This document shows, in pieces, positions 34,453 to 47,068 of a stretch of DNA of 64,000 nt. The notes below the pieces were generated by a model. That model ran no database searches and was not told the DNA's origin. It saw nothing but the letters and a program-made list of their open reading frames with translations. The DNA is from an uncultured Bacteroidales bacterium (GTDB lineage Bacteria; Bacteroidota; Bacteroidia; Bacteroidales; Bacteroidaceae): assembly GCA_902786925.1 (NCBI GenBank), contig CADAEK010000019.1, positions 1 through 64,000 on the forward strand. The letters are read 5' to 3'. Within the stretch, counting starts at the first letter, position 1; each line of letters starts with the position of its first letter. The translations under genes and the position numbers were made by a program.

Positions 34453-34498
34453 GAACTATAGCGCTAGTCAGCCTTTCCTCGAAGCTGATGATTAACCC

Positions 34499-34698
34499 AT
34501 TTGTGGTAGGTCTTCTGGCTTGCTGGCGGTTGCGAATGCCTTCCCAAAGCTGGACGACACAAACGAATGGTTTCTGTTGCCTTTCGCTTCAGTGGCTTTT
34601 AGAGTTTCGCAATCTGTGTAAAATCAGCTTACAGCAGCGGGACTGCTCAGGATTTTCACCTGATTCCCTTTTCATCACTCGAAGGAGTGAACCACAAA
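34499..34698 (-). promoter_or_regulatory. Cobalamin riboswitch
   Basis: Read on the minus strand, the leader holds the conserved B12 blocks in order: GGTGAAAATCCTG, GCAGTCCCGCTGCTGTAAG, AAGCCACTG, GGGAAGGC and GCCAGAAGACCTACC. The closing P1 stem is formed by TTTGTGGT and ACCACAAA at the two ends. About 46 bases separate it from the btuB ATG, so control of translation or of early termination is possible. Bound cobalamin should turn the locus off. Confidence 0.95.
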
Positions 34699-34705
34699 AT
34701 CTGTG

Positions 34706-34713
34706 CAAAGTTA
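34706..34713 (-). promoter_or_regulatory. -7 element of the btuB riboswitch transcript
   Basis: The minus strand reads TAACTTTG just before the riboswitch P1 stem, matching the -7 consensus. No clear TTTG is seen at the right distance upstream. Confidence 0.62.
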
Positions 34714-45101: not shown

Positions 45102-45641
45102 ATGAAAAAGAACCTGGTATTAGCAGCTGTGTTAGCACTTGTGTCACTGACGACAATGGCACAGAACCCCAATAGAGGACAGCGGCAACGCTTTGATCCG
45201 ACAGAGATGTATAACCGAATGGCAGAGCGTCTTGCTAAACAGTTGAAGCTTGATGACGACAAGGCAGAAGCATTCAAGGTGCTTTACCTTGATTATCAGA
45301 CTGCACGGCAGAATGCGGAGAAGCCCCAAGGAGAGAATGCAAATCAGACGAACCCTGATTTTAAGAAGATGACAGATGAGGAGGCAACCGCTTTGATTGA
45401 AAAGCAATTCGCTGCACAGGAGGCGCAGCTGGCTGTAGATAAAGACTATTTGCCCAAGTTCCTGCAACTGCTCACGCCGGTACAGGCGGCACAAGTCTAT
45501 CTCCGGCGCTCGGGCATGCAGTCCACTCGCTCTCAACAAGGGGGTACGGGACGTCCTGCTGGAGGCTTCGGAGGAGGCTTCGGAGGAGGCTTTGGCGGAG
45601 GTTTCGGAGGCGGCAACTTCGGTGGTGGTAATGCCTTCTAA
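45102..45641 (+). CDS. Spy/DUF4890-like periplasmic protein with Gly-Phe-rich tail
   Basis: Secreted protein of 179 residues from ATG at 45102, which starts a clean signal peptide (MKKNLVLAAVLALVSLTTMA). The mature N-terminus is Arg/Gln-rich with YNRMAERLAKQLKLDDDKAEAF, a helical LTxxQ-like pattern recalling Spy/CpxP and DUF4890 proteins. The C-terminus is a GGFGGGF repeat (about 45560-45640). Chaperone-like function is a guess. Possibly also read from the region after the OmpA terminator, but no consensus promoter is clear. Confidence 0.68.
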   Translation: MKKNLVLAAVLALVSLTTMAQNPNRGQRQRFDPTEMYNRMAERLAKQLKLDDDKAEAFKVLYLDYQTARQNAEKPQGENANQTNPDFKKMTDEEATALIEKQFAAQEAQLAVDKDYLPKFLQLLTPVQAAQVYLRRSGMQSTRSQQGGTGRPAGGFGGGFGGGFGGGFGGGNFGGGNAF

Positions 45642-45768
45642 CGCCTTGCGGTAACTACGAATAGGTGACATTTTTCACCAAAAGTAACAAAAGAAGTGCA
45701 ATAATACGTAAAAGAATACATATTTTTAGTTTTTTTGAAATTTGTTATGAAAATCTTCTCTCAGAAAG
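45642..45768. other. Spacer before the T9SS promoter
   Basis: AT-rich. A short GGTGA / TCACC stem at about 45664-45679 lacks a T-run. No gene seen. Confidence 0.5.
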
Positions 45769-45799
45769 TTGACGGAATGGTTCTTATTCCTTAACTTTG
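45769..45799 (+). promoter_or_regulatory. Promoter upstream of the porPKLMN leader
   Basis: TTG at 45769-45771 and TAACTTTG at 45792-45799 are 20 bases apart. It is the only consensus match before porP, yet lies about 330 bases from the porP ATG, which gives a long leader. Confidence 0.7.
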
Positions 45800-45850
45800 C
45801 AACAAGATAAGTACCTATGATTGGATATTAACTAACTCTGTTTTTTAGTG

Positions 45851-45888
45851 GGGAGTCTGAGATGTGAATCTAGGGCTTCCTTTTTTTA
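45851..45888 (+). terminator. Terminator-like hairpin in the porP leader (possible attenuator)
   Basis: GGGAGTCT pairs with GGGCTTCC, using G-U pairs, and an inner AGAT/ATCT helix extends the stem; seven T residues follow. It lies about 45 bases after the expected transcription start. It could end a short RNA or attenuate the T9SS operon. Confidence 0.6.
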
Positions 45889-46126
45889 TGTACTTATTCT
45901 CCTATCTCTCTAATCACAATTTTTCAAGCGTTTCCACGATTATCTTTATCCTTGCATTGCCTGAATTGCTGATGGCATGTTGGTGTAGTTCTCCAAACAG
46001 TCAATGTGTGGGTGCTTACGAGCATCGGTGTGTGGACATCTGTTGTTTTTCCAGGGATAGCACTCATGGGAAGATTTCTTTACCCTTTCACACAATAAAA
46101 CGCGAGAAAAAGAGTTATTTCTAATA
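45889..46126. other. Distal porP leader
   Basis: Transcribed leader if RNA polymerase passes the hairpin. An 86-codon frame (45864-46124) covers it, but it begins inside the hairpin, has atypical composition (many Cys and Ser) and no recognisable features, so I do not call it a gene. No second promoter is evident. Confidence 0.5.
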
Positions 46127-47068
46127 ATGAACAAGCGTTTTAGTGCGTTGTTGCTCCTCTTGACAGCATTGGTGCTGGAAGTGAGGGCACAGTGGGATGT
46201 GCAGTTTACGGACTACACAGCCCTGCGTTCGTTTTATAATCCTGCTGTGTCGGGTACGGATGGCATGCTGAATGTAAGTGGTGTCTACTCGATGCAAATG
46301 GTAGGTTATGACGGTGCGCCTGCTACCATGTATGTCAGCGCTGATATGCCTGTGTATTTCATGAGCCCTCGTCATGGTGCGGGTGTGAGTCTTTTCAATG
46401 ACAACATCGGCATGTTTACTACGACGAAGATAGCCTTGCAATATGCTTATAATTTGAAAGTGAGCCGGCGTGGGCGCTTGGCTGTGGGCTTTCAGGGTGG
46501 CTTGCTGTCGGAGAAGATAGATCCGAGTGGTGTGAAACTGGAAATGGACAATGACCCTGCTTTCCCTAAGTCGCAGCAGGATGGCAACTGCTTTGATTTG
46601 GGTGCAGGACTGTATTATTATCATCCTAAGATGTGGCTGGGTCTCTCGAGCCAGCACTTATTGGCCCCTACCATAGAACTTGGTGAGACCAATGAGATAG
46701 AAGTGCCTCGAGTCTTTTATTTGATGGGTGGATGCAATATTAAGTTAAAAAATTCGTTAATCCTTTTACAGCCCTCTTTCCTTGTGCAGTCTGATTTGGA
46801 CTCTTGGCGTGAGGATGTGCAGTGTAAAGTGTGGTATGAGTATGAGGGGCGTAAGTTCTATGGCGGCTTAGGGTATAGTCCCGAAACATCGGTGACCTTT
46901 ATGGCTGGAGGCGTTTTTCACGGCGTCAGCTTAGGTTACAGCTATCAGATGTACACCTCAGGTGTAGGTATGGTGAACGGTAGCCACGAATTGGTAGTCG
47001 GGTATCAAACGGACTTGGATTTGTTCAAGAAAGGACGTAATCGCCATAAGAGCGTGCGTTGGCTCTGA
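46127..47068 (+). CDS. porP: T9SS outer-membrane protein PorP/SprF
   Basis: Outer-membrane beta-barrel of 313 residues. After the signal peptide, FTDYTALRSFYNPAVSGTDG is the family hallmark; repeated GVSLFNDNIG, LGLSSQHLLAP and GGLGYSPE strands follow. PorP/SprF acts with the PorK/N ring in type IX secretion and substrate anchoring. It leads the five-gene operon. Confidence 0.92.
   Translation: MNKRFSALLLLLTALVLEVRAQWDVQFTDYTALRSFYNPAVSGTDGMLNVSGVYSMQMVGYDGAPATMYVSADMPVYFMSPRHGAGVSLFNDNIGMFTTTKIALQYAYNLKVSRRGRLAVGFQGGLLSEKIDPSGVKLEMDNDPAFPKSQQDGNCFDLGAGLYYYHPKMWLGLSSQHLLAPTIELGETNEIEVPRVFYLMGGCNIKLKNSLILLQPSFLVQSDLDSWREDVQCKVWYEYEGRKFYGGLGYSPETSVTFMAGGVFHGVSLGYSYQMYTSGVGMVNGSHELVVGYQTDLDLFKKGRNRHKSVRWL

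Follow-up and report, generated by a model that had tools for sequence, protein, structure and literature searches.

A small RNA gene before a secretion operon of rumen bacteria probably silences other genes instead of switching the adjacent operon

The window analysed here is a stretch of 64,000 nucleotides of contig CADAEK010000019.1 (assembly GCA_902786925.1) from an uncultured Bacteroidales bacterium. It carries porP-K-L-M-N, an operon of the type IX secretion system (T9SS), and ahead of porP a short conserved element that is the subject of this report. A preliminary description of positions 45769-46126 had proposed that this element is either an attenuator of the operon or a small RNA (sRNA). 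The parts of the element and its neighbours are as follows.

45769-45799, + strand: promoter of the small RNA, read from the sequence (TTGA at 45769-45772, a 19-base spacer and TAACTTTG at 45792-45799)
45805-45887, + strand: small RNA of about 83 nt between its expected ends, a conserved block in a 22-sequence alignment
45807-45818, + strand: conserved 5' element ATAAGTACCTAT, seen in the alignment and not kept in two relatives (G034, locus L022; G018, locus L015)
45830-45848, + strand: core AACTAACTCTGTTTTTTAG, the proposed base-pairing seed, with ACTCTGTTTTT invariant in 22 of 22 rows
45850-45881, + strand: terminator hairpin with a GUGA (GNRA) tetraloop at 45864-45867
45881-45887, + strand: T-run of seven T, the expected 3' end of the RNA, also present after the hairpin in aligned relatives
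46091-46099, + strand: CACAATAAA box just before porP, conserved before porP genus-wide, with or without the RNA
46127-47068, + strand: porP (PorP/SprF, Pfam PF11751), followed by FGE-sulfatase (PorK-like), GldL, GldM and GldN genes
45102-45641, + strand: upstream gene for a short glycine-rich protein, probably exported, with no Pfam or NCBIfam match

The arrangement TTGA-N19-TAACTTTG is what we take to be a promoter of the Bacteroidetes -33/-7 type. A search for TTG-N20-22-TAnnTTTG returned this promoter alone between 44900 and 46300 and six sites over both strands of the 64 kb, which bears out the earlier remark that it is the sole consensus promoter before porP; a generic sigma-70 scan of the window did not detect it. 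Transcription would be expected to start near 45805. The hairpin and T-run lie after this point much as first described, the run being one base shorter than the 45881-45888 originally given, and the distance of about 83 nt from expected start to T-run agrees with the short RNA of about 80 bases predicted there. Among the 25 genomes found to carry the RNA (see below), a TAnnTTTG promoter lies 40-59 bases before the core in 19 and is missing in 6. Canonical sigma-ABfr promoters are mentioned in PMC11697453.

A generic terminator scan of the window missed the hairpin at 45850-45881, and single-sequence folding gave the RNA only a mild advantage over shuffles (z -1.5), 16 of 200 of which folded equally well. 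The alignment, which leaves out identical cores, the incomplete copy L029 and the locus L028, was far more informative: pairing in the hairpin holds in 97.3% of 264 cells over the 22 sequences, and 9 of the 12 pairs show double-sided changes. Covariation was counted in 35 cells, where shuffles average 10.7; none of 500 shuffles reached the score, and sliding the partner strand destroyed the signal. Since single-sequence folding gives so slight a margin, it is because of this conservation and covariation that we accept the hairpin as real. An outer stem GATAAGTAC/GTACTTAT suggested by folding was rejected, its 3' arm lying outside the conserved block and differing already in the nearest relative. 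By sequence, hairpin, T-run and (in 19 of 25 carriers) promoter make up a transcription unit of its own, as would be expected of a trans-acting antisense sRNA.

When positions 45740-46180 were compared by blast with 61 genomes (the window's own and 60 relatives), 24 matched, all within the genus. Most matches were restricted to the RNA part, covering about 43-150 bases of the 441-base query with identity up to 90%. A covariance model found a single copy in each of 25 of the 45 genomes of the genus (11 of 14 among the good genomes). Over 251 genomes of the family it gave 12 matches in the genus and five weak ones in five other genera (E 1.1e-4 to 9.1e-4), which look like chance: L072 and L073 read as plain terminators, and CTCTGTTT or CTCTGATT is absent from L073, L075 and L076 and occurs in L072 and L074 only away from the match. 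An exact 19-mer scan of one genome per GTDB species returned 19 stretches, 18 of them this RNA; the remaining one, L028, is a leader of an HU-HIG gene (see below) also present in G006 and not a copy of the RNA. Among named records, related copies are found in metagenome-assembled genomes labelled Prevotellaceae, Bacteroidaceae or Bacteroidales, frequently from rumen samples. An Rfam scan gave no match to the RNA at the gathering score and none relevant up to E 10, 6S RNA included. In the portions of the literature that were accessible, no described sRNA was recognisable as this one, which does not establish its absence from print. It is well supported that the stretch before the secretion operon holds a small RNA gene, found in rumen bacteria and not listed before.

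The best evidence on the function of the RNA comes from relatives, where the core is complementary to the 5' leaders of genes for DNA-binding proteins of the HU-HIG family (Pfam PF18291). Strong leader sites were found at eight HU-HIG genes in six carriers (G006, G009, G015, G024, G026 and G066). In seven of these genes, from five genomes (one each in G006, G009 and G066, two each in G015 and G026), a CAACTAAAAAACAGAGTTAGT-like site leaves 0-4 bases between its end and the start codon, with a shorter second copy about 30-40 bases upstream; in the G024 leader, the upstream copy is the strong site. The predicted duplexes extend over 28 positions with 22-24 Watson-Crick and 0-4 G-U pairs, at energies of -30.0 to -38.3 kcal/mol (z -4.6 to -7.3); none of 200 shuffles gave so low an energy for any of them. 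The two molecules also change together, the RNA of G024 having AGUAG and its target CUACU, against AGUUG and CAACU in the other five genomes; in two HU-HIG targets A is replaced by G opposite U. In an alignment of nine leaders the sites are retained while much of the surrounding sequence has diverged. The RNA is present in each of the six genomes that have good sites, and the HU-HIG genes of five genomes lacking it (G008, G027, G028, G065 and G067) have no site. Two exact 12-base complements of the core were counted in the 45 genomes: outside the RNA, AAAACAGAGTTA is found at 17 places, 4 of them in HU-HIG leaders, and ACAGAGTTAGTT at 9 places, 5 of them in such leaders. Other exact or wobble complements were taken as chance, as they lie in or against coding regions or lack conserved context. 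The partly accessible literature yielded nothing recognisable on the HU-HIG family. To our knowledge, few known sRNAs of Bacteroidota have a predicted partner so clear. The duplexes count 22-24 paired bases and mostly sit where an HU-like gene begins, and changes on one molecule are matched on the other, so that the prediction can be tested directly.

These data are consistent with a small RNA gene that has a promoter of its own and an intrinsic terminator, and whose invariant core pairs in trans and blocks translation of HU-HIG genes in relatives, a reading to which we give a probability of roughly 78%. The promoter and terminator would yield an RNA whose A/U-rich 5' half bears the core, and the core would pair with the HU-HIG leaders of the six genomes; as the duplex would reach the start codon in five of them, translation would be blocked. 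The length, position and compensation of the pairing support this in 6 of the 25 carriers, and we infer that the RNA is transcribed, processed and represses its predicted targets. It would thus probably silence other genes instead of switching the adjacent secretion operon. In the organism of the window, the RNA presumably acts in the same way on a target that our searches did not find.

Several observations weigh against this reading. Exact complements are not in excess, the 17 places comparing with 29 for a reversed-pattern control (which, unlike the 17, was counted without excluding the RNA itself). The complementarity to remote translation starts with compensating changes, seen in the eight leaders, does not extend to the window genome, where no site stands before either of the two close HU-HIG genes (z -0.1 and 0.4). 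Searching there with an 18-mer, as many as 3 mismatches being allowed, found only the RNA gene itself, and the one wobble-tolerant match is antisense inside a coding region. Altogether 19 of the 25 carriers show no HU-HIG site, so that the invariance of their core must be due to other partners; among these, the close HU-HIG copies of G000 lack the site and the close copy of G022 is cut at a contig end. Several HU-HIG paralogues in carriers (e.g. L249, L257 and L256) also have no site. Conversely, G005 has two HU-HIG leaders with a near-identical site (one base missing) and no RNA was found in this genome, which is 65% complete. Finally, the core is about half free in folding, with an unpaired probability of 0.52-0.62 in five RNAs.

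A block of translation beside the start codon is suggested by analogy with FopS-10 on susC mRNA in Bacteroides thetaiotaomicron, as presented in PMC11697453. The RNA studied here would work like the FopS/GibS sRNAs, of which it is not an established member. A point of likeness is that one FopS copy derives from a 3' untranslated region (3'UTR). On the other side, FopS is a 14-member family, whereas each carrier here has a single copy, and the partners of FopS/GibS are SusC transporter genes and not HU-HIG genes. Rfp18 of Flavobacterium (PMC9723704) resembles this RNA as a Bacteroidota sRNA conserved genus-wide with predicted mRNA targets, but differs in having its pairing region in the third stem-loop and metalloproteases as targets.

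The surroundings of the HU-HIG genes were read in two genomes, G006 and G026. In both, the gene follows D5/DUF5906 helicase-like and CHC2-primase-like genes, and in G026 (L320, 3741-4354) a HigB-like toxin and a helix-turn-helix gene stand between the primase-like and HU-HIG genes. Both neighbourhoods look like the replication module of a mobile element, which would link a conserved host RNA to genes of an apparent replicating element.

In two close relatives of the window genome, G062 and G032, we found an intergenic stretch with a strong hairpin, a T-run and a continuous 16-base complement of the core. This candidate second RNA lies at the following places.

L162, about 1440-1571: candidate second RNA of G062, holding the complement of the core
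L184, about 1440-1573: candidate second RNA of G032, likewise holding the complement

A compensated change is seen in G062, where the main RNA has AAUUAACUC and the second RNA GAGUUAAUU; the G032 copy of the second RNA has GAGUUAGUU. In G032 the stretch lies between MORN-repeat-like and response-regulator/AraC-like genes, named by reading their translations, and no copy of the main RNA was detected in that genome. No TAnnTTTG promoter precedes the stretch, and its terminator was not listed by the generic terminator scan.

A wider scheme can be drawn from these observations, which we regard as speculative and rather doubtful. A chromosomal sRNA would quiet a mobile element by pairing over at least 22 bases with the HU-HIG gene that ends its D5-like helicase/CHC2-primase module, often at two tandem leader sites. 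In other relatives the complementary second RNA would act as a sponge. To the element the host RNA would serve as a signal, and the T9SS neighbourhood (mostly porP-KLMN, a porX-like gene in two genomes) would couple the RNA to envelope state.

We then considered whether the RNA acts on the secretion operon. That porP is an additional or even the main target, repressed through pairing with AAANNGAGTTATT ahead of its start, appears unlikely. This reading draws on an exact 12-base match at AAANNGAGTTATT in G025, on the rank of porP in the window (5 of 45) and on a mean z of -1.07 for porP leaders against 0.25 for porK and -0.03 for the upstream gene (25, 25 and 16 leaders). With one fixed RNA and a shorter target, however, there is little difference between carriers, whose mean z is -0.64 (n=25), and RNA-less clades, at -0.30 (n=13), and the AAANNGAGTTATT site may fall upstream of the start point of porP. 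As a pairing partner, porP is thus not supported.

Even less probable is the attenuator originally proposed, in which the hairpin would end most transcripts from 45805 and porP-K-L-M-N would be fed by regulated read-through. In its favour, both hairpin and T-run are real, and in 18 of the 25 carriers the RNA is followed on its own strand by porP. A cis-acting leader of porP would always lie upstream of it on the same strand, yet in six carriers (G009, G013, G022, G024, G033 and G068) porP does not follow the RNA, which in three of them faces a convergent gene; in the remaining carrier, G015, a contig edge follows. The RNA faces glutamine synthetase in G009 (Pfam) and, in G013 and G068 (L062 and L061), a response regulator with a PglZ domain (Pfam, for the G068 gene). 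No porP lies within 1.5 kb of the RNA in G033 or within about 5.6 kb in G022 (L035) and G024 (L030). Conversely, porP is present in all 45 genomes, including 20 in which no copy of the RNA was detected. In the five of these whose interval between upstream gene and porP was examined (G004, G014, G029, G061 and G063), it measures 137-278 bases and contains a terminator-like hairpin; a TAATTTTG promoter of its own precedes porP in G063 and G014. An ACAATA-containing box precedes porP in 43 of 45 upstream regions, whether the RNA is near or not (G017 was misread there and G020 has no box), and the CACAATAAA box is probably part of the promoter region of porP itself. The conserved block showed neither a leader peptide nor a competing structure kept among relatives. 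Attenuation of porP was therefore rejected, the RNA being conserved away from porP and porP without the RNA; of the preliminary proposal, the small-RNA half stands on conservation and covariation, and the idea that the T9SS operon is attenuated at this locus is corrected. As judged from sequence, porP is a neighbour whose control by the RNA is not supported, and leader control may occur as a side effect in the 18 genomes with the RNA-porP order.

On a PorP tree of 44 rows (G017 was left out for its wrong reading), carriers with and without their own promoter are intermixed. There are two supported RNA-less clades, of 7 and 6 members, and each carrier group requires 3 changes. What follows the CACAATAAA-like box is often a T-rich or TAnnTTTG stretch in RNA-less clades and mostly AAANNGAGTTATT in carriers. 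The response regulator with PglZ has what we take to be the PorX architecture, and in G013 and G068 a T9SS-related gene thus again stands beside the RNA.

The RNA occurs in two genomic forms. In the window, its promoter begins 127 bases past the stop codon of the glycine-rich gene, for which we had presumed the name DUF4890, not used here as Pfam and NCBIfam gave no match. In five carriers (G007, G021, G023, G034 and G035) the core lies 32-116 bases past that stop codon with no TAnnTTTG before it. The RNA would have to derive from the mRNA of the glycine-rich gene there, since it has no promoter of its own and the core is in the 3'UTR; G033 has neither the promoter nor the glycine-rich gene adjoining. 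The position and shared terminator of a 3'UTR-derived sRNA thus fit 5 of the 25 carriers. It is highly improbable that the RNA is simply the conserved 3'UTR and terminator of the glycine-rich gene, acting in cis on that mRNA alone, for apart from these five carriers such a reading faces an own promoter in 19 of 25, no adjoining glycine-rich gene in G013, G033 and G068, and a complementarity to HU-HIG leaders that it leaves unexplained. One genus would hold the same RNA in two guises, as the terminal part of an mRNA and as a separate gene. CpxQ-type sRNAs of enterobacteria are likewise derived from 3'UTRs and share the terminator of an exported-protein mRNA, as in some relatives here, but most carriers have a separate promoter and belong to a different phylum. 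Between the glycine-rich gene and the RNA, many relatives (L047-L056 and similar) have a strongly conserved block, GGAAAAGATTAGTGTAAATCAGTGAGTGTCAATATATGAT, which is absent from the interval in the window.

Elsewhere in the window, a cobalamin riboswitch at 34488-34711 on the reverse strand (103.4 bits) is the sole Rfam match at the gathering score.
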